A stretch of DNA of 38,882 bases from the IMG/VR virus record IMGVR_UViG_3300028027_002229, positions 1-38,882 of that record, one strand, 5' to 3'. A program made the translations under genes and the position numbers. Shown here in pieces: positions 3,401 to 22,162 of this stretch. The notes under the pieces were generated by a model, which made no database searches, was not told the origin of the DNA, and saw only the letters and a list, made by a program, of their open reading frames with translations. This DNA is from a virus. How positions within the stretch are numbered: position 1 is the first letter of the stretch; each line of letters opens with the position of its first letter.

Positions 3401-3718
3401 TAATTTAAAATCTACGTTTGATGCTACACCTAATTGAGTGTTTACATCCTTTTCTTCACCTTTTCTAAATCCTACATACGAAGCATGGATTGTATATGGC
3501 CCACCTACCCTTACAGCAGGTAAAACATAAACACCATTCTTGTTTGTAACCGATTTGTACTCAGTGCCTGTTGGGGTGTGTGTTGCATGAATTACAGCAC
3601 CAACCAACACTTCTTGTTTTTCGTTTTTAACAACACCAGAAATAGTAGAAGTGGTAACTTGACCAAATCCCATTAAAACTGATACTGAAAGAAACAACGA
3701 TAAAATCGCTTTTTTCAT
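440..3718 (-). CDS. TonB-dependent outer-membrane receptor, Oar-like
   Basis: A 1092-residue outer-membrane protein. The start chosen is the ATG at 3716-3718 because it gives a classical signal peptide (MKKAILSLFLSVSVLMGFGQ); the longer frame to 3805 would run through a terminator hairpin. Domains in order: signal peptide 1-19; carboxypeptidase-regulatory-like beta-sandwich about 24-105 (TISGVV, GAVI, NKNGVYVLP); EVVVTG at the start of the plug; plug about 115-240, with NNFTIDGSQFNN and GFTGAGINAVTRSGTNEVEGSVY; then a long beta-barrel ending in IRYIFGR, an aromatic-type barrel terminus. Oar-like receptors are typical of Bacteroidota, where they take up large substrates with TonB-ExbBD energy. 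In a phage it could block or replace a receptor or raise nutrient uptake; that is inference. It is intact, with no frameshift, and sits between a nuclease gene and a kinase gene. Assembly chimerism should be excluded. Confidence 0.93.
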   Translation of the reverse strand: MKKAILSLFLSVSVLMGFGQVTTSTISGVVKNEKQEVLVGAVIHATHTPTGTEYKSVTNKNGVYVLPAVRVGGPYTIHASYVGFRKGEEKDVNTQLGVASNVDFKLVNEATALKEVVVTGTKSGLFSKEKTGAAQQFTRRELQSIPITGARTIEGITKYNPFGNGSSFGAQDSRMNNFTIDGSQFNNNFGLGSSASAGGRTGASAISLDAIDQLQVNVAPFDIRQSGFTGAGINAVTRSGTNEVEGSVYQTQRDNSSRYVGNNANGIKITPSKFDEKVQGFRLGAPIIKNKLFIFGNYESIERTEPGTTWISTGSPLAGSQVSRPTFQQLTDLSKFMKDKFNYETGPFEGYSNTNTSKKFLVRVDWNINANNKLTARYVHHNSEAQIGVSNSQSAGFGNRTQNINAMSFQNSGYTIQDNTRSAVLELNSKLSNTLYNNLIVSYDKQIENRGYMSQMFPTIDILQGSTALTSVGFDPFTPGNKLDYNTFNVTNNLTKYAGKHTLVGGFNFQKYQSNNLFFPASNGVYIFNSLADFYTAANQSLANGGKPSTFAPARFQFRYSALPGAIEPMQTLKSNRLDLYLQDEYNATRDLKLTFGVRANIIDFENTALENPAITAMTFANGEKWNTGVMPKTQVLFEPRLGFNYDVKGQKKTQFRGGTGLFTGRPPYVFLSNQIGNNGVLTGFIDVSGAAAAQYGFTADPNKYFIPSKPTLPSTFDLALTDPNYKFPQVWKTNLAVDQKLPIFGLVASAEYLYNKTLNAVHYYEANLKAPVGTLGGVDNRPRFGGSDATVRVNNNVSRAAVLTSKNGAFHESLTLKLEKPYQKGFWGSFAWTTANSKDYMSAGSIASGSWQSALSIAGNNNLDLSFADAFVKNRFVGLLGYRIEYGSKYGGATTITLGYVGQQGNPFSYIAAGDLNGDRVNNNDLIFVPNKGSDIKFSPLTVGTKVYTEAEQQAAFDKFIDQDEYLKTRRGQYAERNGGLLPYLHRFDLSVAQDVFIKIGGKRNAFQIRADILNFGNMVDNKFGISQRATAPQILNFVSRDAVTNVPTFRLATQRLTDGTTILARDSYQYNSSVFDVWSAQLGIRYIFGR

Positions 3719-3736
3719 CTGTGTTTGTTTTTGGTT

Positions 3737-3767
3737 AAAAAAAAGAGCGGAGACAATGTCCCCGCTC
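3737..3767 (-). terminator. Strong intrinsic terminator in the receptor leader
   Basis: On the minus strand GAGCGGGGAC pairs with GTCTCCGCTC (ten pairs, one G-U) around a three-base loop and is followed by eight T. It lies only 18 bases upstream of the receptor ATG, which leaves no room for a promoter between the two. It would stop transcripts from the primase/nuclease genes and may act as an attenuator for the receptor. Confidence 0.85.
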
Positions 3768-3839
3768 AAAGCGTTATATATATTTGTATATAATTGTTGT
3801 AACAATATGAAAATTTTTGGTTTTCAAGCTATAAATATG

Positions 3840-5584: not shown

Positions 5585-6040
5585 TTACTCTGCCGAAATC
5601 AAATCTTTTCTATAAAATTTACCTAGTATATTATCGTTCATGTATCTATCGTCTTCTAGAACGTTGTGTTGAAATAAACATTTAGTTTCCCAATATGTTA
5701 ATTCCTTTTTATTTCTGCATAACATTAATACGTAACGTTTCAGTTCGTTCTTTGGTAATGACTTTATCTCAGTATTAGAACCGTAGTAAGTTTTCCAATC
5801 GCTTTCTTTAACTACTGTTTTTTTAGATGGTCTTTTACCTCTAGTAACAGGAATTTCAGCTAATTCTTTCTTACCTAATTTTTTATTAGTGGTGTGCAAG
5901 AATGCTTTTTTACCAATGTATGCACGTCCTGTTTTAAGATGACATGTCATATAAACATACCCGTAGTATTCAGTAAAATCAAATGTAGAATCGTTAATCA
6001 TATCCTCTACCTCAGTAGCAGGACCTAAAACTTGAAACAT
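5585..6040 (-). CDS. GIY-YIG endonuclease-like protein
   Basis: 151 residues. YYGYVYMTCHLKTGRAYIGKK carries the GIY-like (GYVY) and YIG signatures at the right spacing. A basic stretch follows, then ESDWKTYYGSN and a helix with YWETKCLF whose Glu fits the catalytic acidic residue. Many T4-like phages of aquatic bacteria carry a protein of this kind; some relatives (the Seg family) are homing endonucleases and others appear resident. Here it lies next to the repeated domain that borders the glycosylation cassette, so a role in moving DNA is possible but unproven. Confidence 0.7.
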   Translation of the reverse strand: MFQVLGPATEVEDMINDSTFDFTEYYGYVYMTCHLKTGRAYIGKKAFLHTTNKKLGKKELAEIPVTRGKRPSKKTVVKESDWKTYYGSNTEIKSLPKNELKRYVLMLCRNKKELTYWETKCLFQHNVLEDDRYMNDNILGKFYRKDLISAE

Positions 6041-6055
6041 AACTATTATTTATTT

Positions 6056-6379
6056 TTAAGTATCGTATTTAACTACGAATGTCATATCAGTATAAGGTGA
6101 CATTAGTATAGGTTTACCAAATTTAGCTACTGCTAATAATTCGTTATTATCATTATACAAACCTATTGATGTAGCATAAGGTGTAAAAAATGAACCTGAA
6201 GGTAGAGCAGAACCAGTAGCAAAATCTTTCAACGAACCACTTTGATAATTACTTACTAAAGTAGGGTTATATGATAAATTAAATTCAGTATTTTGAACAA
6301 CACAACGTACTTCGTTTTCATAAACGAAATGTTCATTTTTAAATGATAATTGAAAGGGTCCTGTGTGTGTTACTGGCAT
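6056..6379 (-). CDS. Small virion-associated protein sharing its C-terminus with the 15416-16396 product
   Basis: 107 residues. The C-terminal third (LYNDNNELLAVAKFGKP, then a beta-rich tail ending VVKYDT) closely matches the end of the 326-residue protein at 15416-16396 (MYNDNNELLAVAKLSKP ... RVKLDY). The DNA at 6121-6170 and 15481-15530 agrees at about 45 of 50 positions, so the copy is recent or kept similar by recombination. The N-terminal part is shorter and different. It is probably a fibre or neck component like its relative, or an accessory subunit; a truncated duplicate is also possible. Its stop lies 15 bases from the start of the GIY-YIG gene. Confidence 0.65.
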   Translation of the reverse strand: MPVTHTGPFQLSFKNEHFVYENEVRCVVQNTEFNLSYNPTLVSNYQSGSLKDFATGSALPSGSFFTPYATSIGLYNDNNELLAVAKFGKPILMSPYTDMTFVVKYDT

Positions 6380-6391
6380 AGTTTAAATTTA

Positions 6392-7153
6392 TTAAACAGG
6401 TCTTCTACTACCTAAGAATGTATTAACTAAATAAGTATTACCAATAGTTGCTACTGTATTGTTTGTTCGTTTAGGAGTATTTAAAAGTGTTTCAACATAT
6501 GGAGTAGATCCATCTGGTGTTCCATTAACATATAAATTTAATTGAGCAACATCCGTAGCAAACTGTCTAGTTTGTAATATAGTTTGAACAAAAAACTGAA
6601 CTCCACTAGGTATAAAAATAGTTGTTGAGGTGCCTGTTGAAGATAAGGTACCAAGAAGTTGAGTCGTATCGGCTCTATATATTTGAGTAACACCAGAGTT
6701 TCCAGAGTCAATTGTTAATGTTACAGTAATGCCTACTAATGGAGTTGATGGTGTGATAGTTTGTGTAGGCGTAGATGCAGGTGTTGATGTTGGTGTTACT
6801 GCAGGTGTGCTTGCAGGTGTGCCTGAAGGTGTGATTGTTTGTGTTGGTGTTGGTGATGCATTAAATGTAGTCGATGGGGTAACTGTTGGTGTTTGAGTTG
6901 GTGTTGAAGATGGAGATGGTGTGATTAATATATCAACATCTTTTTGATAAGAACTACATGCTGGGTTGATGTTTCTAAGGGTAACAGTTTTAGTGGCTTC
7001 GGGTACTGTAATGAATATAGTTGAATATAATTCATTTAAAGTTAAAGGACCTTCACGGAATACAAGGGCATTATTTGTATCACGATAATACAAATTATAA
7101 GGACCCGGACCCGTTCCTGTTAACATTCTCACATATGCATCAATATCTGCCAA
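6392..7153 (-). CDS. Virion protein with a Thr/Pro-rich mucin-like segment (small copy)
   Basis: 253 residues, apparently starting at a TTG (7151-7153); an ATG ten codons in (MLTGTGPGPYN) is the alternative. Layout: an N-terminal beta-sandwich-like domain (about 1-78, with LTGTGPGPYNLYYRD and VTLRNINPACSSYQ); a Thr/Pro/Ser-rich segment at about 79-138 (6740-6919) made of TPTQ, TPAS and TITPS units; and a C-terminal beta domain (about 139-253) ending in GSRRPV. It has the same kind of Thr/Pro segment as the 788-residue protein at 13043-15409, which lies on the other side of the sugar-transfer genes. A surface fibre or decoration protein is likely. The segment is a plausible target of the neighbouring glycosyltransferases (inference). 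Confidence 0.65.
   Translation of the reverse strand: MADIDAYVRMLTGTGPGPYNLYYRDTNNALVFREGPLTLNELYSTIFITVPEATKTVTLRNINPACSSYQKDVDILITPSPSSTPTQTPTVTPSTTFNASPTPTQTITPSGTPASTPAVTPTSTPASTPTQTITPSTPLVGITVTLTIDSGNSGVTQIYRADTTQLLGTLSSTGTSTTIFIPSGVQFFVQTILQTRQFATDVAQLNLYVNGTPDGSTPYVETLLNTPKRTNNTVATIGNTYLVNTFLGSRRPV
6740..6919 (-). repeat. Thr/Pro-rich low-complexity coding repeat
   Basis: Degenerate short repeats encode TP-containing units (TPTQ, TPSG, TPAS). On the plus strand they appear as GGTGTT/GATG runs resembling those of 13781-14431, so the two loci can recombine. Confidence 0.8.
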
Positions 7154-7177
7154 TTGTATATATTTTTATATAAATAT

Positions 7178-8851
7178 TTAATTTTCACGTCTTTCTTCAG
7201 CCTTATAAAATTCAAACCTATTGTGTTCTGTTGGGGTAGCCAACAATATACCCGGATAAATATTACTTTTTAATGTTTCTTGATAGATATAACTCATCCA
7301 TGTTTGTTCATAAGGATACGCCCAGGTTGTATTGATAAATAATTTTTTATTTCCTTCACGAGATACTACTTGAGGCCAATTACAGTAATAAATCTCACCA
7401 GTAGCATAAGGTACATTTCTATAAGATTTTATATGCTTATAATTAGTAAAAGGTGAGGCATCTTGGTTTGATGTATCCTTAACAGGCTTTTCAGGAAATA
7501 GTTCAGCACGGATATTAGCGGGAACATTATGCCAAGCCCATTGTTTTGTATTATCTCCATAAAATTCAGTGAAATTCCATTTTAAAAAATCAAAATTTTC
7601 ATCCCACATTATTTGTAACATAATATTATAAAAATCTTTAATTTTTCTTCTAAATCCATTTCTACAAAACTCATCTCCGCCTAAATAGAAAAACATATCA
7701 TCTTCAAAAAAGAAATGATAATCAAAATCATTTTTATCGGCATGTTCTGCTATGAACTGTCTTCCACCACAAATACCTAAATTGTCTTTTTTAATTTCTT
7801 CAAACCCATATTTATCACACAACATTGAATATGCAATATCAGTATCTCTATCTAACGAATTGTTTAATAAAAATTTCTTAGGTTTAGTTAAAAAATTATT
7901 ATCATATTCTTTAAAAGATATGCAAAGTTTTTCAAACTGATCTGGTGAATTGTATGTTATAACATATAAAGCAACATTATTGGTATTGTGTTGGTTTATT
8001 TTAATCTTATTAGATTGTATTTTTGCTTGTATGTTATTATTTTTTAAATTTTCAAAAAATCTAAACAACAAACCATCCATTTCAATGTCATAATATTGGA
8101 AAAATTCTGGGTGTTTATAAAGAAGAATTGTAAATAAAGATTCTTCAGTACCCATAAATCCTGCAGATAGAGTATCTACTAATATTGAGTAGTATAGTTC
8201 ATTTATTTTACCAATAATTCCTTTTGGTCCACCGAATATCCCTCCTCTACAAACTTTATCTACTTCATCACCAGCATAATGGCACATAGAACTATAAGTA
8301 AATCCATGTATTTCAACTTTACCATCATATGGAAAAGCTACAAAACTAAATTTATTAAAATGTTCGTCTAATTTATCTAAAACTTTATCACTCCAAAAAT
8401 ATCCTTCACTTACAGTATTTGTTAAAGCACCGTCAACCCAAACTAAATGTGTTGAATTAAAAGGATCTATAATAGCAGCATCATTAAGCAAAAACATTTT
8501 AGACATTACAATTGGATTGTACATTTCAAGTTTTGCTTGAGTGCTTTCAGGTAACCATGAAGGTGATTGATTGTACCATTCAGGTTTAGTTCTTATTTCT
8601 TGAATTTTATTAAATATAAATTCATTTGATCTAAACCAATCTAATTCTCTAACTAGAACAACAGTATTAGATTTATCTCGTCTTTCCCATACCCAATCTT
8701 CATATTGGCTTTCAATAAAGATTATAAAATTGGTTGGTGTCTTTAATAACTTTTCTAAATTGTTAAGATAATGTTGAAATGATCTTGACCACCCTTCAGA
8801 TAAAGAATCCCTTTTAATATCCCAAATTCCCGTAACTACTGTAACAGACAT
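7178..8851 (-). CDS. Two-domain glycosyltransferase (HtrL/YibB-like plus GT-A)
   Basis: 557 residues, apparently a fusion. Residues 1 to about 270 resemble the HtrL/YibB (WlaTC-like) family: MSVTVVTGIWDI at the N-terminus, HLVWVDGAL with the acidic metal site at about 136-143, and CRGGIFGGPKG at about 201-211. The same pattern occurs in the separate 297-residue protein at 9481-10374. Residues about 291-557 look like a GT-A transferase: VALYVITYNSPDQFEKL, a Leu/Asn-rich strand, and FFFEDDMFF at about 380-388 as the DxD-type metal site. It probably transfers two sugars, or one domain places the other. The acceptor is unknown; it is the last gene of the cassette, followed by the small Thr/Pro-rich gene. 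Confidence 0.7.
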   Translation of the reverse strand: MSVTVVTGIWDIKRDSLSEGWSRSFQHYLNNLEKLLKTPTNFIIFIESQYEDWVWERRDKSNTVVLVRELDWFRSNEFIFNKIQEIRTKPEWYNQSPSWLPESTQAKLEMYNPIVMSKMFLLNDAAIIDPFNSTHLVWVDGALTNTVSEGYFWSDKVLDKLDEHFNKFSFVAFPYDGKVEIHGFTYSSMCHYAGDEVDKVCRGGIFGGPKGIIGKINELYYSILVDTLSAGFMGTEESLFTILLYKHPEFFQYYDIEMDGLLFRFFENLKNNNIQAKIQSNKIKINQHNTNNVALYVITYNSPDQFEKLCISFKEYDNNFLTKPKKFLLNNSLDRDTDIAYSMLCDKYGFEEIKKDNLGICGGRQFIAEHADKNDFDYHFFFEDDMFFYLGGDEFCRNGFRRKIKDFYNIMLQIMWDENFDFLKWNFTEFYGDNTKQWAWHNVPANIRAELFPEKPVKDTSNQDASPFTNYKHIKSYRNVPYATGEIYYCNWPQVVSREGNKKLFINTTWAYPYEQTWMSYIYQETLKSNIYPGILLATPTEHNRFEFYKAEERREN

Positions 8852-8855
8852 AATT

Positions 8856-9494
8856 TTAGTTTTTTTTCTTACATACCCAAACTACTTTATCAAACATATT
8901 TTTATGAAATGAAATAAGATTATTTTTTATACAGGCTTCTTCAATATCAGCATCCGAAATTTCATGCCAATTCCAAATATTTAAGTTTATTTTTTCTTCA
9001 AATACTTGGTGGTTTTCAGCATAATCATGAGCCATTATATAATCTCCTGATTTTATAAATTTAGACAGTAGGTTAAATTCTTTAATTTTATCACCACCAT
9101 CACAAAGTACTAAAGTTGTTCCTTCATCGCCAATAAAGTTTTGTATTTCTTCTTTAACTTCACTATAATTGTTTAAAAATATATCTTCAATCCTAACATC
9201 AATCCCCTGTTGTCTCATAACATTATAAGATTCTCCTCTGTCACAAATATCATAAGATAATATTTTACAATCAATTTCTAACTTTTTGCAAGCATAATTT
9301 AAAAAAGAAGTAAACCCACCTAAAGCAGTACCTATTTCTAAAATACGTTTAGGTTTAATTTCATCTAAAAAATAATAAAATGCTTCAAAAGCATTGTGGT
9401 TTTGTTGAGCAGCCCATTCATCATTGTATACTGATAAGCTGTCGTTTTCTGCTAGATTACTATATCTTGTAATCTTTTTTTCATATGGTATCAT
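8856..9494 (-). CDS. Class I SAM-dependent methyltransferase (CmcI-like)
   Basis: 212 residues. RILEIGTALGGFTSFL (about 50-65) is the SAM-binding Gly-rich loop. ILSYDICDRG is the second strand, with its acidic residue, and LVLCDGGDKIKEFNLLSKFIKSGDYIMAHDY resembles the post-motif region of the cephalosporin hydroxylase/rhamnosyl O-methyltransferase (CmcI) group. In a sugar cassette it most likely O-methylates a sugar. Its 5' end overlaps the end of the upstream gene by 14 bases, so the genes are co-translated. The substrate is not visible. Confidence 0.65.
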   Translation of the reverse strand: MIPYEKKITRYSNLAENDSLSVYNDEWAAQQNHNAFEAFYYFLDEIKPKRILEIGTALGGFTSFLNYACKKLEIDCKILSYDICDRGESYNVMRQQGIDVRIEDIFLNNYSEVKEEIQNFIGDEGTTLVLCDGGDKIKEFNLLSKFIKSGDYIMAHDYAENHQVFEEKINLNIWNWHEISDADIEEACIKNNLISFHKNMFDKVVWVCKKKN

Positions 9495-10374
9495 TGTAAT
9501 ATATTTCTTCTAGTAATTTATAAAAAGATTTGTTAGTATTTAAGTATTCATTAACATCTCTCCCACCAATGTGTTCAGATTTAGTATTATTTTCATGAGT
9601 CCATATATCAAACCATTTAGTAGTAAATAAATCTTTATGGTTATAATACAGAACAGTTAATATATTTTCTTCATACCACATTTCTCCACAATCATCTGCT
9701 GTTCTGATTGAGTAATCATAACACATGTTATAAAAATTTTCAATTAGTGATGATTTACCACCAAAAAAGCCTCCTATAACGTGCCACTTATAATCATACT
9801 GTTCATTAAACATTTGAAGAGGTTCTTGAGACCAAGCATTTGTTAGATTATCCTTAATAACTAAAAATATTTTATCATCTGATATATTAACTAAGTTGTT
9901 TATAAAAGAATTAGTAAAAATATCTGAATAGTAATAGTCGGGTAACAACCATCTTTCACCTCTACACTCTAACCATTTATCTGGTATTAGGGCGACATGA
10001 GATAATCCAGCATCAAACCAATAAACATAATCACAGTCTTTAGATTGTTGGTATAACCAATGGAATTTTAAATATTGTATTTCAACACATCTATCTGATG
10101 CTTTAGATTCTTCGTAGTTTTTATATTTTTGAATTAAAGATTGAAATGGTGAATCAGTAAGAGAATGAGGTATGATTTCTAAATCAGAATACTCTTTAAA
10201 TTCTTCTTTTAGATCATTATATTCTTCTGGAGATGTGTATAAAACAAAATGGGCATCATTCATTTTCATTAATGAATGGAGCGAAAATATATAATGCTCA
10301 TTCCTATTAAGTCTTCCTCCATATTCAGAACCATACAAATTATTATATATGGCTGTAACTATCTTAATTTTCAC
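9481..10374 (-). CDS. HtrL/YibB-family glycosyltransferase-like protein
   Basis: 297 residues. It shows the HtrL/YibB pattern: MKIKIVTAIYNNLYG at the start, a central YWFDAGLSH (about 118-126) with the acidic metal-binding position, and HVIGGFFGGKSSLIENF near residue 210. Members of this family include capsular and lipooligosaccharide sugar transferases. It is a paralogue of the N-terminal half of the 557-residue protein at 7178-8851. It overlaps both neighbours (14 bases and 11 bases), which marks it as part of one operon. The sugar and the acceptor are unknown. Confidence 0.65.
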   Translation of the reverse strand: MKIKIVTAIYNNLYGSEYGGRLNRNEHYIFSLHSLMKMNDAHFVLYTSPEEYNDLKEEFKEYSDLEIIPHSLTDSPFQSLIQKYKNYEESKASDRCVEIQYLKFHWLYQQSKDCDYVYWFDAGLSHVALIPDKWLECRGERWLLPDYYYSDIFTNSFINNLVNISDDKIFLVIKDNLTNAWSQEPLQMFNEQYDYKWHVIGGFFGGKSSLIENFYNMCYDYSIRTADDCGEMWYEENILTVLYYNHKDLFTTKWFDIWTHENNTKSEHIGGRDVNEYLNTNKSFYKLLEEIYYNDTI

Positions 10375-11089
10375 TTAAAATGCTTTTATAGTTAATATCA
10401 TTATTATTTCTGATTTCAATAACATTATCTTGTTCCATATACAATGTAGGTAATTTTATTGGTGTATAAACATTCCAATTATACGATTGGGTAAGAAAAT
10501 TATTATAAAACCCACCTGAAACATCTGATTGATTATTTAACTGACAACAGAGTGGTAAGATGGTGCTATAACTTTGATATTTTGGGTAAATGTGTTCAGA
10601 TAAAAATTCATCAATAGCATATAATGGATTATACTTATCGATTTCATCATACATATCTTTTGTATAAACCATAAATCCTGTACCAAATATACCTCGATGG
10701 ATTTTTTCATCTTTAGGTGGGAGGTGGGTGAGATCTAATAATAAGTTTGATATACTTGAAATATTTAAAGGTCTATGAATAGACATATTTAAATTCAAGA
10801 TTTTATAGTCAATTGTTTTTAAAATATTTTCTAAATCAGCTAATAAAGATTTAGCATAAGGCATAAAAAATATATCATCTTCCATGACAATAACTTTATC
10901 TAAATTTTGTTCTTTTGCCTTTTTAATTATTTCAATATGTGATAAAGCACAACCTTCATGAGAATCTTTTTCAATCCCCTCAAAAATCTCAAAATCAAAC
11001 CCCATATAATTCATTTCTTTTATTATATGTTCTAATCTATTAGGTCTTTTTTTTAGATTTATTATATATTTTTTAGTATTACTGAGCAT
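10364..11089 (-). CDS. Glycosyltransferase family 25
   Basis: 241 residues. Family 25 hallmarks are in order: YIINLKKRPNRLEHI at about 8-22, FEIFEGIEKDSHEGCALSHIEII with the conserved GCALSH, then VIVMEDDIFF at about 67-75 (EDD metal site), and GTGFMVYTKDMYDEI. Family 25 enzymes usually add galactose or glucose to lipooligosaccharide or to proteins such as collagen. It belongs to the cassette of six sugar and methyl transferases. The low GC is like its neighbours, so there is no sign of very recent transfer. Confidence 0.82.
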   Translation of the reverse strand: MLSNTKKYIINLKKRPNRLEHIIKEMNYMGFDFEIFEGIEKDSHEGCALSHIEIIKKAKEQNLDKVIVMEDDIFFMPYAKSLLADLENILKTIDYKILNLNMSIHRPLNISSISNLLLDLTHLPPKDEKIHRGIFGTGFMVYTKDMYDEIDKYNPLYAIDEFLSEHIYPKYQSYSTILPLCCQLNNQSDVSGGFYNNFLTQSYNWNVYTPIKLPTLYMEQDNVIEIRNNNDINYKSILSEN

Positions 11090-11108
11090 TTATAAATTGT
11101 TTTTTGTT

Positions 11109-11723
11109 TTAATCTTTTAACTGCCAGTTTTCAAATTTAAATTCAAATTTGTATGTTAAAAAATGAGTAAGATTAAGAGCATCAATTATTTTATTGTATC
11201 TTTCTTTCCAATTATCTACCGAATTTTCATGAAATTGAATTTGAATATTTTTAAATTTTGTTAATATTCCTTTATCTATCATGTATTCTAATAAATAATA
11301 TTCGGCACCCTCAATATTCATTTTTAATAAATCTACTTCATGTATATTTTCATCAGCCATATAACTATCAATAGGAATCATTTCAATATATGAATTTTCA
11401 TTTTTAACCTGTCCCCATGCCATATAAATTGATGAAGCATCTCCAGCTACATAAAAATTCACAGTATCATTTTTATCACCTAAAACTTTACGATAGAGTT
11501 TTACTTTATTTAAATCTTTTAATTCCTGATGGCAAATATCATATAGGTAATCTATTGGTTCAAACGTATGTATATTACATTTATATCTATTATATATTTG
11601 TTTAGAAAAGAGGCCATGATAACCACCTAAATCAAATACTATTGAGTCTTGATTTAAGGGATAATCATATCTCAAATCTTCATCCCACCAATCTTCTTTA
11701 ACACCAAATCTTGGTCTGTCCAT
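11109..11723 (-). CDS. FkbM-family methyltransferase
   Basis: 204 residues. DSIVFDLGGYHGLFSKQI (about 26-43) is the SAM loop, IHTFEPIDYLYDIC is the second strand, and LLKMNIEGAEYYLLEYM is the FkbM signature (N/D-x-E-G-A-E). FkbM enzymes O-methylate sugar or polyketide hydroxyls. The upstream region contains a T4-late-like TATAAATA on the coding strand (seen as TATTTATA at about 11735). It lies between the GT25 gene and the GlcNAc-transferase-like gene and probably finishes the glycan by methylation. Confidence 0.78.
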   Translation of the reverse strand: MDRPRFGVKEDWWDEDLRYDYPLNQDSIVFDLGGYHGLFSKQIYNRYKCNIHTFEPIDYLYDICHQELKDLNKVKLYRKVLGDKNDTVNFYVAGDASSIYMAWGQVKNENSYIEMIPIDSYMADENIHEVDLLKMNIEGAEYYLLEYMIDKGILTKFKNIQIQFHENSVDNWKERYNKIIDALNLTHFLTYKFEFKFENWQLKD

Positions 11724-11738
11724 AATCTTTTTTTTTAT

Positions 11739-12989
11739 TTATAAGTTTCCTTCTATTTTGTCACACCATCCTTGAGATGTAGAATAAGGCCATACTACCC
11801 ATTTTACTGGTTTTTGGTGAGTTGGAAATTCTCTCCATACTTTTCCATAACCATCAGGATCATTTTTAATCTTTTTTATTTCATCAGATTGGGCATCTTG
11901 TCTATAAATAGTTTCTCCTTGTTCATTTTCAAAAGCAACACACCAAAAATCGTAATCATCTAAAGGTACTTTTTTATAATCAATATCAATACAATGTTTA
12001 AATATTGATAAAAATGAAATTTCATAATCAAGAGGAGATACAATAACTGGATTAGGTGCTATATTATTATCCCTAGTGTATTGTTGAACTGATCTATCTC
12101 TAAACCTAATACCAGCATATGCTTCATATTGGAATAAGGTTCGTTCGGTACCAAAATCATAAGGTCCAAATTCAATATCACATCTACATTCTCCATCTAC
12201 AGCAAATAAAGCTCTATTGCGTTTATGGCAATGATTATTTCTATTTATCCACTCTTTATCATCATCCCATTGTTTAGTTCTACCTTTACGAGTGTATTCA
12301 TGCCAAGCAATTACTTTATGGGGATGAAATAAATCATAACCCCAAGTATAAGAACGAACGGCTAATGAGATTTCCTCACCGTGGAAATAATATTCAGGAT
12401 CGTAAGGTACCTCAGTACACCATTGACCTAAAGTAAAGATAAAATGTGCTGATAGAAATCTAGATGGAATTGGGGATTTTAATTTTTTCCAATTAGGGAT
12501 AGTTGCAGGTAGAAAAAATATAGCTCCTTCAGGAATAAATCTATCAAAAGTCATCCACCAAGGTTCCATCACACGTAATTCAGGATCATTGTCTGGGTCA
12601 AATGAAGGGATATAAGAGGTTAGCAATGGTTTTTTATGTCCTTTCTTTTGTAATTGCTTAATCATTTTGATACACTCAGTATCCCACCCTTCAATAAAGC
12701 GATGATGTGAATCTAGTTGTAGATAATATTCTTCTCCACTATAATGTTGATGACATTGGTTACGAGCCCAACATGCACCTTTAGAATCACTATGGATGAT
12801 GTCGATAATTTTAAAACGAGCATCATTTTTAAATTCATCTAAAGTATCCCAAGTATCTTCTTCAGCATGTTGCCATGCTATACCAAATACTAAGTCTTCA
12901 GGATGATCAGCCTTGTCAATGCAATCGCGTAGTGTAGGTAATAATTGTGGATCTCTATAACTAGCTATAGAAATATAAATTTTTGGCAT
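11739..12989 (-). CDS. GlcNAc-transferase-like glycosyltransferase (Skp1-type)
   Basis: 416 residues. IYISIASYRDPQLLPTLRDCI at the N-terminus, GACWARNQCHQHYSGEEYYLQLDSHHRFIEGWD (metal site DSH at about 93-95), YFHGEEISLAVRSYTWGYDLF and the following WHEY match the bacterial and eukaryotic GlcNAc-transferase family whose founder modifies hydroxyproline in Skp1. The family also contains bacterial and phage proteins of unknown acceptor. It is the first gene of the cassette and comes just after the large Thr/Pro-rich virion protein, which makes a protein acceptor attractive. That link is inference. Confidence 0.78.
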   Translation of the reverse strand: MPKIYISIASYRDPQLLPTLRDCIDKADHPEDLVFGIAWQHAEEDTWDTLDEFKNDARFKIIDIIHSDSKGACWARNQCHQHYSGEEYYLQLDSHHRFIEGWDTECIKMIKQLQKKGHKKPLLTSYIPSFDPDNDPELRVMEPWWMTFDRFIPEGAIFFLPATIPNWKKLKSPIPSRFLSAHFIFTLGQWCTEVPYDPEYYFHGEEISLAVRSYTWGYDLFHPHKVIAWHEYTRKGRTKQWDDDKEWINRNNHCHKRNRALFAVDGECRCDIEFGPYDFGTERTLFQYEAYAGIRFRDRSVQQYTRDNNIAPNPVIVSPLDYEISFLSIFKHCIDIDYKKVPLDDYDFWCVAFENEQGETIYRQDAQSDEIKKIKNDPDGYGKVWREFPTHQKPVKWVVWPYSTSQGWCDKIEGNL

Positions 12990-13042
12990 AACGGTAATAT
13001 AACTAAATTTTATTTAAGTTCCAAATCTATTAAAACTATTTT

Positions 13043-15409
13043 TTAAGGTTGAGGTTCTAGCGGTTCTTCTCCACCACCACCACCAGTGTAACAAATACCA
13101 ATAGCAGAAACTCTATAAGTTTCAGCATAATCTGGGTGTTGTTCTAAGTAATATGTGTTGTATCCATCAGAATAAACATTGTATAAACCAATATTTCCAT
13201 CACTTGTTCCACCATCTACACCAAATACTGCTGAACCAACTGATAATGTAGCATCAGGAGATTTTAGTATTGTGTTATAAGCACCAGCACATGCTTGTGT
13301 GTAGCCACCGCCACCACCATCATAGGATAAAGTATGACTGTATACTGTTTGTTCTGTATAAGAAACAAAGGTCCAAATCTTAAGTGGTCTAGTTCCTATT
13401 ACAACTGAAGTATCAGCAAATGTTTGAGTATCATTAGCATTATATGGTACAACATTAGTGAATATATCTTCCATAGCACCATCTGCATAGTATACCCAAG
13501 TGTATACGTTAACAGTAGCAAATAATGGACTAACTCTTAATCCAGCACCTGCAAGTCCTTTAAAGCTTCTTATTGAGAATGTTTGACCTTTATAAAGAGG
13601 GCCTAAATAAGATCCAACACCACCAGCATAAGCATCATGACTAGCTTGACTATATGTTACAAAACCAGGAGTTCCAAAGTATACGTAATCATCACTACCG
13701 TTTTTCTCAAAACGCAAGTTATTATCATAGAAGTGATAACCAGTATTAACTTCAATCACATTAAACTGCATCGAAATCACCTGTGGTGTTGATGTTGGTG
13801 ATGGTGTTACTGCAGGTGTTGATGCCGGTGTTGATGCCGGTGTTGAAGCAGGAGTAGATGCTGGTGTTGATGCCGGTGTTGATGCCGGTGTTGATGCCGG
13901 TGTTGATGCTGGAGTAGCTGTATTTGAAGGTGTAACTGCCGGTGTTGATGCCGGTGTTGAAGGTGGAGTAGCTGTATTTGAAGGTGTAACTGCAGGGGTT
14001 GAAGCAGGAGTAGCTGTATTTGAAGGTGTAATTGGTGGTGTTTTTGAAGGTGTAACTGCAGGAGTACCTGTTTGTGATGGTGTAACAGGTGGTGTATTAG
14101 AAGGTGTAACAGGTGGTGTTGATGACAGTGTCACTGCAGGAGTACCTGTTTGTGTACGCGTAACTGCAGGAGTACCTGTTTGTGTTCGTGTTAGAGTTTG
14201 TGTTGGTGTTTGAGTTTGTGTTAATGTATTAGTTATTGTTTGTGTAATAGTATTAGTTGGTGTTAATGTATTAGTTGGTGTTTGAGTAATTGTTTGAGTT
14301 GGTGTTATTGTATTAGTTGGTGTTAATGTATTAGTTGGTGTTTGAGTAGTAGTTGGTGTCTGAGTAAGTGTTGAAGTTACAGTTGGTGTTACAGTAGAAG
14401 TATTTGTTGGAGTTGGAGTTGGTGTAGGTGGGATGAATACTACTTCATAACTAAAATCACAATCTCCTGGTTCAACATTAAATCTAATTGTTGCTTTATT
14501 ACTTTCAACAACGACATCATTATTTATTAAGGCATCTACAGTATAATAAGCTTCATAAACGCCTTCAGAAAAAAACTTAATATTGTCTGTAGTTACAGTT
14601 CCTTCTATAATAGCTGATCTAGAACTTATAGAAGTAGTTGCATACATTCTAGGTACATTATTTCCATTTAATTCTATAATACTCAACTGTTCAATACTAC
14701 CTGATATTATTGCAGAGCCTGTAAGTATAATTCCAGGTCGAGCTATATCATTAGCTAAAACACTTGCACTTCCCGTTTTAGAATAATCACTTGCCTTAAC
14801 ATTAATTATATCGGCAACAGCTAATGGAGGTAAAGGAAACATTCCTTGATAGTCTTGGTTAGTAATAACTGCTAGCCCTTGAGGATAAAATATATTTCCA
14901 ATATGAATACTTCCTGTATCAAATAAGTTACCATTACCATCATCAGTTATATAATAAGCAGAAGATGATAAAACAAAGTTGTAAGGTAAAACCTTACTAC
15001 CGTAGACGTCTTGATTAACAGCTAATACACGAATACCAGCATTAGATGCTGTTGGAAAATCTAAAATTATATTTGGATTTTCATCATAAACAAAATATGA
15101 TGCTGTATTATAATTTTGAGAAGCAGATTCATATAAAAATGAATTTGCAAGAGAAGATGTATCTAAAAAAGAACCACTAAATTGGTGGTAAAATAAATGA
15201 TTAATTTGATCATAAACTAAACGTTCATATTGACCCTCAGTTACAGGATCCATTGTAAAGTCAAAACTACCTGTTACATTAGTTCCTTTGTAAATAGTTA
15301 TATATTCTGAGGAAGTTGGATAACAAGAAGTAATTAAGTCCCATTGCTTATTAGCTGCATAAGCAACGTGCGTAACGTCTGATTTGTTTAGTTGTTTGAA
15401 TGATGACAT
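13043..15409 (-). CDS. Large virion/fibre protein with a Thr/Pro-rich mucin-like stalk
   Basis: 788 residues. Residues 1-326 form a beta-rich N-terminal part (MSSFKQLNKSDVTHVAYAANKQW, SGSFLDTSSLANSFLYESAS, VLANDIARPGI). Residues 327-543 are almost only Thr, Pro, Ser, Ala, Asn, Gln and Val, beginning PPTPTPTPTNT and ending in a perfect TPAS repeat. Residues 544-788 form a C-terminal beta domain rich in Tyr and Gly, ending in GGGGEEPLEPQP. The build suggests a virion attachment domain, a stiff extended stalk and a distal binding domain. It lies between tail genes and the sugar-transfer cassette, and the stalk has well over 80 Thr/Ser that could carry sugars. No known family is recognised beyond the general type. 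Confidence 0.7.
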   Translation of the reverse strand: MSSFKQLNKSDVTHVAYAANKQWDLITSCYPTSSEYITIYKGTNVTGSFDFTMDPVTEGQYERLVYDQINHLFYHQFSGSFLDTSSLANSFLYESASQNYNTASYFVYDENPNIILDFPTASNAGIRVLAVNQDVYGSKVLPYNFVLSSSAYYITDDGNGNLFDTGSIHIGNIFYPQGLAVITNQDYQGMFPLPPLAVADIINVKASDYSKTGSASVLANDIARPGIILTGSAIISGSIEQLSIIELNGNNVPRMYATTSISSRSAIIEGTVTTDNIKFFSEGVYEAYYTVDALINNDVVVESNKATIRFNVEPGDCDFSYEVVFIPPTPTPTPTNTSTVTPTVTSTLTQTPTTTQTPTNTLTPTNTITPTQTITQTPTNTLTPTNTITQTITNTLTQTQTPTQTLTRTQTGTPAVTRTQTGTPAVTLSSTPPVTPSNTPPVTPSQTGTPAVTPSKTPPITPSNTATPASTPAVTPSNTATPPSTPASTPAVTPSNTATPASTPASTPASTPASTPASTPASTPASTPASTPAVTPSPTSTPQVISMQFNVIEVNTGYHFYDNNLRFEKNGSDDYVYFGTPGFVTYSQASHDAYAGGVGSYLGPLYKGQTFSIRSFKGLAGAGLRVSPLFATVNVYTWVYYADGAMEDIFTNVVPYNANDTQTFADTSVVIGTRPLKIWTFVSYTEQTVYSHTLSYDGGGGGYTQACAGAYNTILKSPDATLSVGSAVFGVDGGTSDGNIGLYNVYSDGYNTYYLEQHPDYAETYRVSAIGICYTGGGGGEEPLEPQP
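13781..14431 (-). repeat. Thr/Pro stalk repeat with a 12-base tandem array
   Basis: About 650 bases of degenerate repeats encode the stalk. At 13811-13918 the unit is an almost exact 12-mer (plus strand TGATGCCGGTGT) encoding TPAS, in about eight or nine copies. Units further right are TPTN/TITP-type and more diverged. The array keeps the reading frame when units are lost or gained. Confidence 0.9.
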
Positions 15410-15415
15410 ACATGA

Positions 15416-16396
15416 TTAGTAATCTAACTTCACTCTGATTAATGCTTCTTTAGTAAAATCTTTTACTAATGGTTTTGATAATTTAGCTACAGCTAATAAT
15501 TCGTTATTATCGTTATACATACCTACTGTTGTAATATATGTTTGAGGATTATTAATCAATGTTGTATATAATAAATTACCATTTTCATCTATTACTGATG
15601 GGTTAGTAGTATAATTATATTCATTATTTTTAATACGTGTAAAGAAATAACGTGCTGAAATAGTTTCAGATGATTTCATTTGGAAATTAGAACCAGAAAC
15701 TAATGCTCTCCAAATATTCAAATTGTTATAAACTGTTGTAGTTGAATTACTATAAGCAATTCCTGGTGTTAAACTTCCTGTTAATGCGTTAGCATCTAAA
15801 ACAATAATATCTAAATCTGGGAAGAACAAACCATAATATTTGTTTGGAGTTCCTGATGTAAAGTAAGAACCATTACTTCCACTAATGATATTATAATATC
15901 TATTTTCACCAATAAAACGAGTTAAATTTGTAGTACCGCTATCATCTGTGTATCTAAATGAACCACTAGCACCTGCTAAAGTCATATTTAAAGAACCAGG
16001 TAATAAAGATTCTTTATAACGAGCTCTAGAAACGTTAATAACATAAATAGCATTTGATGTAGTTGAACCATTATCAAAGCTAAAATTTGTTGTTTCAGTA
16101 CCGTAAACTAAATTTCTATATTGACCATACACAACACGAGATGGAGAATACCCAACTACAGCACTGTTAATAGGAGCTGAACCTGATCCACTTACATGTC
16201 CAAATTGTAAACTAAATTGAACTGAAGCTGATGTTGAAGTGTTAAAATTACTATCAAAAATATCTACATAGTACTCTGTGTAGTTACTAGATGTAAAAAA
16301 TGTATTTAATGTGTAGTTATCTCCACTCCATAAACCACGCACTACTGTTTCGGCGCTTACTACTGAATCGTCTGTATTATATCTTGTAAATGACAT
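15416..16396 (-). CDS. Virion structural protein with a C-terminal YNDNNELLAVAK domain
   Basis: 326 residues. Beta-rich, with many Ser/Thr/Gly/Tyr; the start is MSFTRYNTDDSVVSAETVVRG. The C-terminus (TVGMYNDNNELLAVAKLSKPLV ... RVKLDY) is shared with the small protein at 6056-6379. Proteins with this tail occur near the baseplate and fibre genes of aquatic T4-like phages and are usually called structural. It lies six bases from the fibre gene, inside the late operon. The exact position in the virion is unknown. Confidence 0.7.
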   Translation of the reverse strand: MSFTRYNTDDSVVSAETVVRGLWSGDNYTLNTFFTSSNYTEYYVDIFDSNFNTSTSASVQFSLQFGHVSGSGSAPINSAVVGYSPSRVVYGQYRNLVYGTETTNFSFDNGSTTSNAIYVINVSRARYKESLLPGSLNMTLAGASGSFRYTDDSGTTNLTRFIGENRYYNIISGSNGSYFTSGTPNKYYGLFFPDLDIIVLDANALTGSLTPGIAYSNSTTTVYNNLNIWRALVSGSNFQMKSSETISARYFFTRIKNNEYNYTTNPSVIDENGNLLYTTLINNPQTYITTVGMYNDNNELLAVAKLSKPLVKDFTKEALIRVKLDY

Positions 16397-16409
16397 TGTT
16401 TATATTATT

Positions 16410-17075
16410 TTAAACTGTGGCTACTTTTTGAATGTTTAATGGTATAGTAATTCTAGCACCACTATCTCTACCAATCACGGTAAGTGTAGTTGTTAAGGTA
16501 GACAAACTAGTTCCAAATAAAGTATTGATTGTAGTACCTGTTATTGTAAATGAAGTACCAATTTGGCTTGACGATAACACGGCACCTGAAGTTGTATTTA
16601 AATCTGTAATTCCTGGTGTTGTTACTGTGATACCTGTTCCTGCAAATGAAGATAATAATCTTGAATCAGAAACAGTTACAATATATCCGTTTGCTTCAAA
16701 TGTACTTGTAGCACCTAAGTAATTAAGTGTTTGTGGAGTAATTGTTAATGAAGCACCTTGACGTAAAGTAATGCTGCTATATCCAACATTAATAACTGGT
16801 AAACGTGATGTACCACGAGGTAATGTTACTAGCTTGTAACGCATAATTTGTGAATCGTCTGGGTATGCTTCAATTACAGGCATGTTTTCAATTGCTTCAC
16901 CGTAATAAGCAGATCCTGATGGATGATTTGGATTGTATAAAGTATAATCAATCTCATCGTCAGCTAATGAAAATTGCGTAATTTGAAATGAACCATCATT
17001 ACGAGCCAACAATTCACGGCCCTTAGTGGTTAATATTGCATCTACTGTTACGAATGTAGGATTTAAAATTGCCAT
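16410..17075 (-). CDS. Conserved virion structural protein
   Basis: 221 residues. The N-terminal 75 residues (ILTTKGRELLARNDGSFQITQFSLADDEIDYTLYNPNHPSGSAYYGEAIENMPVIEA) look like a conserved phage tail-associated domain: a helix, then a domain with an acidic DDEIDY loop. The second half is a Thr-rich beta domain (residues about 105-221) with repeated TSGAVLSSS/TITGTTI-like strands. It follows the 1562-residue tail protein in the late operon. A baseplate or fibre-connector role is inferred from position. A TATTTATA octamer lies 21 bases before its ATG. Confidence 0.65.
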   Translation of the reverse strand: MAILNPTFVTVDAILTTKGRELLARNDGSFQITQFSLADDEIDYTLYNPNHPSGSAYYGEAIENMPVIEAYPDDSQIMRYKLVTLPRGTSRLPVINVGYSSITLRQGASLTITPQTLNYLGATSTFEANGYIVTVSDSRLLSSFAGTGITVTTPGITDLNTTSGAVLSSSQIGTSFTITGTTINTLFGTSLSTLTTTLTVIGRDSGARITIPLNIQKVATV

Positions 17076-17121: not shown

Positions 17122-20100
17122 TTATATTGCGTTTCCGCTACTTAATAATTTTTGTTTTACTTGTCTTGCAATTGTATCAATATTTTTCAATACTTCTGGT
17201 GATAAGTTATCAGGTATTACAAACCCATATGATGTTTGTCCGTCTTCTTTATCAAAAGATAAGTTAATATTAGTTTCATCTGGTATTTTAGATAGTAATA
17301 ATAGTTTATTTATTGTATTATTAGTATAAGAAGATACCGATAAAGTACTTGCCAAATTTGGTGAAACTTTTAATTCCAAAATTGATGAATTCTTAATAGC
17401 TGATACTATATTAAGTTCTTGTACTTGTGTATTGTTATTATAATAAAGAAGAAGCACATCTCCAACCTTAGGTGTAAAAGTATAGTCTATGTTTCCATAA
17501 GTTGGGTGTAAATCAGCGGAGCTAGTTTGGGATAAATACAAATAATCTTTAAAACTAGATAAACTTTCATTTAAATATAATGTATCAGTACCATTAGAAG
17601 ATGATATAAACGGAGCAGCAGAGCTAGTAGCAAACGGATTTATACCTGTAGTTGCTGTAGAAATTGTATTTTTTAATCCTGTATATGGTGTTCTATCCCC
17701 GGTGTTAAGTAAAGATGCTGTATAGGATCCTGTAGATATTGATTGTGCTAATCTAAAAAATATTTTGTCTCCAGGATTAAAGTTAGTATAAGAACTAGTT
17801 ACATTAAAATCAAGTACTGAGGATAAATTTCCTAAAGATGATGTGAATGTTTTTGTTTGAGAAGCTAACGTTGTACTACCAGATATTATGCTAAAAGTAT
17901 AAGAAGCACTTTGTGGAAAAGAACCAAACTGAATATTAACACCAAAGTTTGCTGAGAAATCCATAGTAATATTCTGTGATGCTGAATAGAAAGGGAAACT
18001 TCCAGTAACACCTAAGTTATAGTAAATACGACCATCGTACGTACCATCAATATTATTAAAGGCATTATATACAAACCCACCACTAGGAGCATACTGATTA
18101 GTTGATCCCCCATTTATAAATCCATTATTATTATTACTACGGAATAAAATTGAAGTACCTACTCCAATATATTGAAAATATAATTTTGTAGAACCTGTAC
18201 TATAGTATAATGTTGGATAGTAAGAATACCCACTATCAAATACAGATTTAGGACCATCTGTTTTTTTCTGATCACTATATTGTTGGTTATCAAATAAAGC
18301 AACAGTTGGATTTGAACCTAATTTAAATGTATTTTGAACTTCAGACCAATTGCTATCTATACTTGAAGTTGGTGTTTGACTTAATTCAGTTAAACTACCA
18401 CTTTCATCTACTAGGTATTTTAGAGCAACTAAGTTACGACTATTAAAGAATGAACTACTTACAACTTGAGTAAACAAACCAAATTTTCTAACATATCTAT
18501 CAATTGCTGCTGATTTACCATATGATTGATCTCCATCAGTGTATGTATTATATTTGGCGCTATACGTTTTAGAACCACTATAACGTGGTAGTATGTATGA
18601 AGATAACGATAAATAAGAATCTTGTAATGAAGATGTTACTAATAGAGGGAAAGATCCACTTCCAATAATTTGAGAACTACCTGATATTTCTAAAGTTTTT
18701 CTTGATGTTGAATACAAACTAGTAGATACATTATTTAACATTACGTTAAAATCTGAATGTATAAAATCATTATAATCAGGCATTTTTGGTTTTGTATTGC
18801 CTGGTAATGTTCCATAAGTACCTACTGTATATAACAATCCTGAAGCTGATACACTTGAGGATATGTTTTGTAATGAACTGCTATAAGGTGCTAAAGATCT
18901 ACTAAAGTTTAAAGCAACTGAAATGTTTTGAATTGTGTTTTCAGCTGTTGAGCCTGTTGGTACATATATTATATTAGATGTATTAGTTAAATTAGAAGCT
19001 GTTACTACAAATGTTATATTGTTTGTGCTAAGAGATTGTGTAGATGCAGAAGAAGTAAATGAAGCTGTTACTTCTGGAATAAAAATATTAGCTAAGCTAG
19101 CACTAGTTTCATATATAAATTTATATCCAAATACAGGAAAAGGATTTGATGATGAGACTTGTGGTTGAAAAGCATTTGATGATGTATATTGTAAATTACC
19201 TAACCATGGGTTTTTATTACTTGCTACAAAATAATCATCATATACATTGATTTCAGATCCAGGAATTTCTCCATTTATATAAGATACTTTACTTCCAGAT
19301 AAATCATAATAGAATGGATCATATACAGATTTAAAAACAGGAGCCACAACGCTACCATCTTTTTCTAATTCATTATTAGCAGTAGGTTGTGCATAAGACC
19401 ATTTATTTCTCTCTAAAACAGGAGAATTAATAGTAACACCTGTTGAAAGACTAGTTCTTGCAGGAACATAATCTTCTAACATTTTAAACATTGAATTATC
19501 GAAGAACTGAATTAAGCGAATAAACCCATTATAATCTAAAAGTGAACCTGTAAATCCAGCATATGAACCAGTGCCATCAACAAAATAAATTTTTCGTTGA
19601 GCATTTAAATCTTCATAAGAACCACTATATAATTGTTGAGGATTACCTATATAATCATCTATTGACCAATTAGTATTAACAGATGAAATAGATTTAGAAA
19701 CATATGTATCTAACTGTGTTTGAGGAGAAAAAGATATATCAACATAATGTTCATCTGCTGTTCTAAAATTAGATGAGGCAGTGGTATATTGTAATATACT
19801 TGTATAAGGTGATAAAACACTTCCAAAAGTACCAGCTACACTTGCAGTAACATTATCAATAATTCTAACTTTATCATTATTATAACCTGCTAATAATCCT
19901 TCAGTTGTAGAACCACCAAATTCTTTTACATTTAAAATACTACTTGTTAATGCACTACCAGTAGGGGTATAATAAGTAGAACCTGAAATTGTGTAGTGAT
20001 CTTGGTTTGGTATACCGAATGTAGATAATAATGTTCTTAAACCAGCAACTGTACCTTTACGTTGTAATAATAGAGGTAAGTTATGGTAAATGCGTTTGTA

Positions 20101-21814: not shown

Positions 21815-22162
21815 TTATTGCTGTTGAGAACCCTGTCTTGCAGCGTTCACTGTGGTTTGTATTTCTACTAATTGTTGTCTTAATGAAGTAATTTCATCTA
21901 ATAATGCTTGAATATCTGTATCATCTATTCTTACTTCTAAAGTACCTGCTATTCTTTCTAACAATTGTCTTAAAATATCTTCTGGTAGAAGATCATATAA
22001 AGAATTAAACAAGGCTAAAAAATCTTCTATTGTAAAAGATGGTGTAGCAGCATCCTGTGTATCTACCTGAACGGCAGGAGGTAATTGGCTAAATTGCCTA
22101 TTAACTACTTTATCGAAAGCATCTTTATCAAATACTGTTTTCTCTAATGGTATACGAGACAT
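21815..22162 (-). CDS. Small coiled-coil structural protein
   Basis: 115 residues. The N-terminal part (PLEKTVFDKDAFDKVVNRQFSQLPP) is followed by FTIEDFLALFNSLYDLLPEDILRQLLERIAG and then a heptad-like helix, DIQALLDEITSLRQQLVEIQTTVNAA, ending in QGSQQQ. It overlaps the upstream gene by one base (TAATG). A linker or assembly role in the tail is inferred from the operon only. No family is recognised. Confidence 0.65.
   Translation of the reverse strand: MSRIPLEKTVFDKDAFDKVVNRQFSQLPPAVQVDTQDAATPSFTIEDFLALFNSLYDLLPEDILRQLLERIAGTLEVRIDDTDIQALLDEITSLRQQLVEIQTTVNAARQGSQQQ

Follow-up and report, generated by a model that had tools for sequence, protein, structure and literature searches.

Exchange of receptor-binding modules is familiar from tail fibres such as the gp37/gp38 adhesins of T-even phages, and DNA and host O-antigen are common targets of phage glycosyltransferases. 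Host-recognition modules are likewise exchanged in Alteromonas A5/V22 (PMC10579305). Phage-encoded virion glycosylation was described by Freeman et al. (2023) for the mycobacteriophages Che8, Corndog and Myrna, as cited in PMC12363180 and PMC12619734, and glycoproteins are reported for phage XacN1 in a passage of PMC5852040. Within glycosyltransferase family GT60, TcOGNT1 of T. cruzi starts O-glycosylation, forming N-acetylglucosamine (GlcNAc)-alpha-O-Thr in mucin-like proteins (PMC9472816), and the Dictyostelium Skp1 enzyme transfers GlcNAc onto a hydroxyproline of Skp1 (PMC8724618). Here we analyze a locus on a 38.9-kb viral contig with a GC content of 32% (IMG/VR record IMGVR_UViG_3300028027_002229; the whole stretch of 38,882 nucleotides is called the window). 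In this locus a conserved virion-type gene, P2, is split at one point around fibre and sugar-transferase genes; across relatives the split state changes recurrently, fibre tips and inner enzymes are swapped independently, and the detached end of P2, SHORT, is under purifying selection. We consider it likely that the enclosed genes form an exchangeable host-recognition fibre cassette inside P2, with a stalk that is O-glycosylated by the cassette's own enzymes.

One P2 gene cut at a single point

Homologues of the neighbouring protein P1 with at least 60% identity were found at 80 viral loci. Downstream of P1 these relatives carry either a full-length P2 at once, or a fibre gene with a variable cassette between it and SHORT. 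The window has the second arrangement, and its features are given below in leftward order (numbers beginning with L denote related loci).

15416 to 16396, minus strand: P1 (LONG, 326 residues), a conserved virion-type protein; body at 15641-16396, C-terminal "tail" domain at 15419-15640
14837 to 15409, minus strand: P2N, the N-terminal part of the paralogue P2, which opens the 788-residue fibre protein; P2 profile columns 1-213 match residues 1-191 (E = 2.4e-66)
14420 to 14836, minus strand: fibre middle domain, Ig-like or beta-rich by eye, common to related split loci
13775 to 14419, minus strand: Thr/Pro-rich stalk, the predicted O-glycosylation substrate and tip-exchange joint; Thr/Ser/Pro (T/S/P) fraction up to 0.75 per 60 residues
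13043 to 13774, minus strand: exchangeable fibre tip, 243 residues and stop codon, predicted as the probable receptor-binding domain
11739 to 12989, minus strand: GlcNAc transferase, conserved first gene of the module; PF11397, E = 2.1e-69, 235 bits against a cutoff of 21
11109 to 11723, minus strand: FkbM-type methyltransferase, exchangeable inner gene; PF05050, E = 8.8e-10; absent in L004
10364 to 11089, minus strand: glycosyltransferase family 25 (GT25), exchangeable inner gene; PF01755, E = 1.3e-16; absent in L004
9481 to 10374, minus strand: GTx, probable glycosyltransferase, exchangeable inner gene; no confident Pfam match
8856 to 9494, minus strand: sugar O-methyltransferase-like protein (RMNT_CmcI/FtsJ), exchangeable inner gene; PF04989, E = 8.6e-8
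7178 to 8851, minus strand: HtrL_YibB protein with a C-terminal glycosyltransferase-like part, conserved last gene of the module; PF09612, E = 2.2e-13
6392 to 7153, minus strand: second Thr/Pro fibre, 253 residues; anchor domain at 6926-7153, stalk at 6740-6925, tip at 6395-6739
6056 to 6379, minus strand: SHORT (107 residues), the C-terminal part of P2 (P2C), here a free-standing gene with a start of its own; P2 profile columns 216-312, E = 2.6e-50
5585 to 6040, minus strand: SegE-type GIY-YIG endonuclease, the constant right boundary of the locus; PF19835, E = 3.5e-24

Intact (fused) P2, the paralogue adjoining P1, is a single gene of about 310 codons with products of 287-399 residues, and a hidden Markov model profile of 312 columns was built from the fused copies. 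In all split loci, columns 1 to about 214 lie in the fibre gene and columns from about 215 to 312 in SHORT, revealing a single fixed cut point. P1 and SHORT share nothing but the C-terminal 74 residues of P1, which recur in SHORT at 37-39% identity. In a tree of this C-domain, P1 tails form one clade and P2 tails together with SHORT the other, both starred at 99. The division of the profile between fibre and SHORT, together with this tree, therefore identifies the locus as one P2 gene cut once, with the cassette inside it. Judged from their trees, the two tails are ancient paralogous domains of P1 and P2 that are found across the relatives, and the near-identical 50 bp between them correspond to a conserved LYNDNNELLAVAK motif.

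A second scan added loci and yielded 79 unique loci complete from P1 to SegE, of which 40 are split, with inserts of 231-8,940 bp, and 39 are fused and lack an insert. Every one of the 79 holds exactly one copy of P2C, and SHORT is retained in all 40 split loci. The state has changed recurrently: the P1 tree shows about 12 changes, at least four of them forced by starred, strongly supported branches, and the P2N tree shows 3, with five copies of fused P2 nested inside a split clade. This disparity fits a history in which P2N and the cassette moved jointly across P1 backgrounds and were then lost again. A filled and an empty site can be compared directly in L069 (split) and L065 (fused), which are about 81% identical from P1 to P2N, then hold 3.3 kb versus 29 bp, and resume at 92% in P2C and 95% in SegE. 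The unequal identity of the flanks indicates a recombination junction near the insertion site, and no target-site duplication was seen in this comparison.

The detached gene has features of its own. SHORT shows a ratio of nonsynonymous to synonymous divergence (dN/dS) of 0.07-0.16, consistent with purifying selection, and its new start, MP..xHTGSF, is conserved in most copies. In the window and related loci, the 8-mer TATTTATA occurs within 45 bp upstream of 294 of 1281 genes (23%). It precedes 22 of 75 SHORT genes, compared with none of 139 fibre or fused-P2 genes and 1 of 139 P1 genes; on the window it is found before, for example, 440-3805, 6392-7153, 16410-17075 and 22162-23271, and it is a candidate promoter motif of these phages.

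Two further arrangements of P1/P2-type genes were noted among the relatives. In Microcystis phage Mel-JY01 (L084, 10859-19805), five tandem genes carry P1/P2-type domains, two of which (954 and 718 residues) apparently contain large in-frame inserts, an unsplit form of the P2 theme. At the split locus L022 / L125:6348-7977, the fibre gene is divided into two open reading frames of 117 and 451 residues by a frameshift, which may represent phase variation or a sequencing error.

Exchange within the cassette and pairing of stalks with enzymes

Close relatives of the window reveal how the parts are exchanged. Identity between the window and L003 is 88-96% for P1, P2N, SHORT, the second fibre, each of the six enzymes and the middle domain, and 74% for the repetitive stalk, but the 243-residue tip of the first fibre lacks any similarity; the match breaks off where the Thr/Pro stalk ends and restarts just past the stop codon. 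L004 carries the same tip as the window (88%), with FkbM, GT25, GTx and the methyltransferase replaced by other genes. Between the window and L004, the tip has the lowest synonymous divergence (dS) of everything compared (0.27, versus 0.40 for P1 and 0.46-1.2 for the others, with most flanking genes at 0.50-0.99) and the highest dN/dS (0.41). These three loci confirm that tips of different origin sit on conserved bases in close relatives, and since L003 combines another tip with the same enzymes and L004 the same tip with other inner enzymes, tips and inner enzymes swap independently. As read from these alignments, the swapped parts are joined at the repeats of the stalk and at the two conserved enzyme genes, GlcNAc and HtrL.

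The intergenic segment before the GlcNAc gene, 12990-13042, is conserved in L003 and L004 even though the end of the preceding gene differs in L003. It resembles a Bacteroidetes TTTG...TAnnTT promoter, so the cassette enzymes may be transcribed separately.

Pfam matches in the window and its relatives confirm that these genomes encode glycosyltransferases. The open reading frames named in the sequence-only reading, and their order, were confirmed. That reading had counted six glycosyl- and methyltransferase genes between the Thr/Pro proteins; there are six genes, and five match transferase families above the Pfam cutoff, with 9481-10374 as the one lacking a confident assignment. The lead enzyme belongs to PF11397, which corresponds to GT60, and D93-S94-H95 is invariant in 21 sequences including those of jumbo phages, matching D-X-H, the conserved catalytic motif of the family. 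A comparison with PDB sequences gave no meaningful match. From its family membership, the enzyme is a probable initiating peptide GlcNAc-transferase. Cassettes of other relatives carry different transferases, including GT2, GT6, GT34, GT-sugar, a hexapeptide acyltransferase and several methyltransferases. Another recurrent protein, c17 (L024:12545-13504 and 13 relatives, about 319 residues, with an invariant DxD), matched no meaningful family in Pfam at permissive E-values or among PDB sequences and is a candidate new glycosyltransferase family.

We next consider which fibres these enzymes accompany. With a stalk defined as 60 consecutive residues of which at least 60% are Thr, Ser or Pro, glycosyltransferase genes occur at 22 of 38 loci with a stalk and at 0 of 46 without one, in counts that ignore ancestry. 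The kind of enzyme follows the kind of stalk: again ignoring ancestry, the GlcNAc set was found only with Thr/Pro stalks (Pro fraction 0.13-0.26, 10 loci) and the c17 set, among the scored loci, only with Thr/Ser stalks that are poor in Pro (fraction 0-0.11, 12 loci), and the two sets do not overlap. L089 and L090 serve as a natural control: P2 is fused, the stalk resides in a homologue of the virion-type protein encoded at 17122-21810, and a GlcNAc...HtrL cluster lies behind SegE; stalk and enzymes have moved together.

A comparable cluster occurs far outside this group. In the unrelated jumbo phages XacN1 and RAS14, genes for a GlcNAc transferase, a carbamoyltransferase, a GTx-like protein and an HtrL protein lie in one cluster beside that of a giant protein with a Thr/Pro stretch. 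Pro-Thr repeat sites encoded across the whole genome number 31 in XacN1 and 11 in RAS14, versus 0 in a reversed-pattern control. Homologues of the GlcNAc transferase are present in XacN1 (48% identity), CM1 and RAS14, and the HtrL protein is 41% identical over 100% of its length to those of XacN1, RAS14 and CM1. GTx matches 286-288-residue proteins of the homologous cluster in XacN1 and RAS14 at 25-27% identity (E about 3e-23). The carbamoyltransferase (PF16861/PF02543) is found in L159 (XacN1 216551-223508), L160 (RAS14) and, among the relatives of the window, L090 (12870-14495). That the jumbo-phage cluster and L090 share it, at 47% identity, suggests movement of the glycan cluster from one kind of phage to a very different one.

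Proposed mechanism and rival explanations

Splitting of P2 makes P2N the base of a long modular fibre, composed of P2N, beta domain, Thr/Ser/Pro stalk and variable tip, and leaves P2C as SHORT; across relatives the intervening DNA has been exchanged many times, either as an entire cassette or in smaller pieces such as tips and inner glycosyltransferases. P2N would anchor the fibre on the virion and the tip would bind the host, with SHORT keeping a structural role as a separate subunit that supplies the P2 domain in trans. Co-infecting phages may exchange modules by ordinary homologous recombination, with crossovers in the conserved flanking genes (P1/P2N on one side, P2C/SegE/primase on the other), among the stalk repeats, and in the two conserved enzyme genes that open and close the module. 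The cassette enzymes would O-glycosylate the fibre stalk: the PF11397 enzyme would put the first GlcNAc on stalk Thr (or Ser), the inner variable enzymes and the HtrL-type enzyme would extend and methylate the glycan, and the second, c17-led enzyme set may do likewise for Pro-poor Thr/Ser stalks. Such a glycan could stiffen the fibre, protect it from proteases, mask it from host surface defences or tune attachment. A virion location of P1 and P2 is suggested by the gene neighbourhood and by Flavobacterium phage immuto, in which genes between P2 and SegE are annotated as tail fiber and tail spike.

Several results weigh against this picture. No glycosyltransferase gene was found in the available DNA of 16 of the 38 stalk loci, mostly those with the most Pro-dense stalks (TPTPTP). 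The link between enzymes and stalks is clustered by ancestry, and when only supported branches are counted, 3-4 independent pairs are concordant and none is discordant, which is not enough to reach significance. The probes for glycosyltransferase genes were drawn from the cassettes themselves, and when 61 representatives of gene clusters at stalk-less loci were compared with Pfam, a search that glycosyltransferase families unknown to Pfam would escape, one GT2 was found, apparently in L128, where the fibre has a T/S/P fraction of 0.58, just under the stalk cutoff. With regard to virion location, the structure model of P2 reached a mean predicted local distance difference test (pLDDT) score of 54 and that of P1 68, with a confident P1 body but a low-confidence C-domain from residue 253, so that the C-terminal part is poorly modelled in both proteins. 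A Foldseek search with the P1 model found no match in PDB and only uncharacterised phage relatives in BFVD. For XacN1, the glycoproteins are not named in the passage of PMC5852040.

The sequence-only reading had proposed that duplicated virion genes bracket the cassette and that recombination between their roughly 50-bp tail repeats deletes or swaps all of it in one step. The repeats themselves are real: 6121-6170 and 15481-15530, which point the same way and are separated by 9.36 kb, agree at exactly 45 of 50 positions, and relatives have similar matches of 48-71 bp. The flanking pairs did not hold up as recent duplicates: beyond the shared C-domain of the 107- and 326-residue proteins, the 788- and 253-residue Thr/Pro proteins resemble each other only in low-complexity repeats, their non-repeat domains are of different families, and outside its repeats the second fibre resembles nothing but a family of small fibres that have an anchor of their own. 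The identity of P1 tails to SHORT or P2 tails is no higher within a genome (0.372) than between genomes (0.376), and the tails belong to separate clades, which gives no hint that they were recently duplicated or homogenized by gene conversion. The predicted deletion product, a P1-P2C hybrid with a single tail, is absent from all 79 complete loci. The alternative state observed is an intact P2, with P2N joined to P2C, which tail-tail recombination cannot produce, leaving that route unsupported and, in our judgement, most improbable. Comparison of relatives did bear out missing and replaced cassettes between the flanks, with breakpoints where P2N meets P2C, where the Thr/Pro stalk ends, and at the HtrL and GlcNAc genes rather than at the tails. 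A replaceable module thus stands, and sugar-coating is its best-supported function. An even less credible notion is that the split P2 is a degenerating gene and SHORT a functionless remnant; only the C-terminal third survives as a separate open reading frame, but its retention in every complete split locus, low dN/dS, conserved new start and TATTTATA motif are at odds with decay.

Two other explanations leave the split intact and concern what the neighbouring genes do. SegE could be a free-standing homing enzyme that spreads the cassette by cutting cassette-less genomes. Its SegE_GIY-YIG domain directly adjoins the cassette, and the SegE side of L069/L065 is 92-95% identical as against 80-81% on the other side. 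Among relatives, however, SegE lies 3' of P2 or SHORT, mostly directly adjoining, at the same place in fused and split loci, and so neither marks nor travels with the cassette; with no insertion-site duplication seen either, we regard homing as highly unlikely. Somewhat less improbable, though still unlikely, is that the enzymes alter the host surface, for superinfection exclusion, or the phage DNA, and travel with fibres through shared host-range selection. Known phage glycosyltransferases act on DNA or host O-antigen (PMC12619734), and HtrL and GT25 resemble lipopolysaccharide enzymes. Nevertheless, the enzymes are missing from all 46 stalk-less loci, though every one of these phages has to recognize a host; which enzyme set is present tracks the stalk sequence, Pro-containing or Pro-poor; stalk and enzymes relocate together in L089/L090; and known members of the lead enzyme's family modify Thr or hydroxyproline of proteins.

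We therefore favour the glycosylated, exchangeable fibre cassette, and tentatively extend it to a broader proposal that is slightly less likely than not: that fibre glycosylation is mobile and matched to its substrate, with at least two enzyme sets travelling with their own stalk type into split P2, another virion gene and unrelated jumbo phages, that c17 is a new family of peptide O-glycosyltransferases, and that the P2 protein works as one chain or two around an exchangeable glycosylated fibre. If this is true, the tip, the length and the sugar coat of the host-contacting fibre would be linked modules that a phage lineage could change, and sequences would allow an enzyme and its substrate to be predicted jointly. 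The loci would provide naturally matched pairs of stalk and glycosyltransferase and a candidate mucin-type O-glycosylation pathway in phages, the purpose of phage virion glycans would become directly testable, and the fused and split forms would be natural pairs for asking how a structural protein copes with division into two pieces.

Probable host, neighbouring genes and comparison with known systems

The window also encodes T4-type baseplate, endolysin, primase and exonuclease proteins, contigs of relatives reach 183 kb, and among cultured phages the nearest relative is Flavobacterium phage immuto (Immutovirus, 160 kb). No near-identical DNA was found among GenBank phages. A scan for prophages and hosts in about 85,000 bacterial and archaeal species genomes found no relative of P1, and the window phage and its relatives therefore look virulent. 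They probably form a T4-like group infecting Bacteroidota (Bacteroidetes), given the relationship to immuto and the outer-membrane-receptor gene at 440-3805.

That gene (minus strand) encodes a complete 1121-residue outer-membrane beta-barrel protein of the TonB-dependent-receptor type with a carboxypeptidase-regulatory N-domain (PF25183 and PF13620). Homologues are placed after the exonuclease in at least L022, L026, L029, L074 and L075, and only two GenBank phage records match the protein, one of them covering 97% of it. The phage-encoded barrel could substitute for, or mask, a host receptor. At the contig end, 2-415 (minus strand) is a fragment of a Zeta-toxin-like P-loop kinase, with a similar protein in L039. 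Between 33247 and 38387, at least six dispersed repeats of 29-55 bp (TTTTATACCGTGAATATACGA...TGCC) lie among small genes and are possibly early promoters.

No paper on such a locus was found in the open-access literature. Immuto (locus L083) has the same order, P1 - P2 ... SegE, but its P2 is fused, the annotated tail fiber and tail spikes follow P2, and no glycosyltransferase cluster was found in the 25-kb stretch searched. As in T-even gp37/gp38 and Alteromonas A5/V22, receptor-binding parts are swapped by recombination between conserved flanks; here the module additionally splits a conserved paralogue at a fixed point, leaves its C-terminal part as a separate gene and brings glycosylation enzymes. 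The lead enzyme falls in the same Pfam family as the Skp1 enzyme and TcOGNT1, far above the cutoff, but differs in being phage-borne and clustered with HtrL-type proteins and methyl- or carbamoyltransferases. As in the mycobacteriophages and XacN1, phage glycosyltransferases have been shown or are proposed to act on virion proteins. In the mycobacteriophages these are capsid and tail tube proteins, whereas here the substrate is predicted to be the repeat stalk of an exchangeable fibre whose gene adjoins those of the enzymes, and each type of stalk goes with its own type of enzyme. Overall, virion glycosylation and modular tail-fibre exchange are each already known; what is new is that both are physically joined in a split virion-type gene and matched to stalk chemistry, with an enzyme cluster that recurs in unrelated phages.

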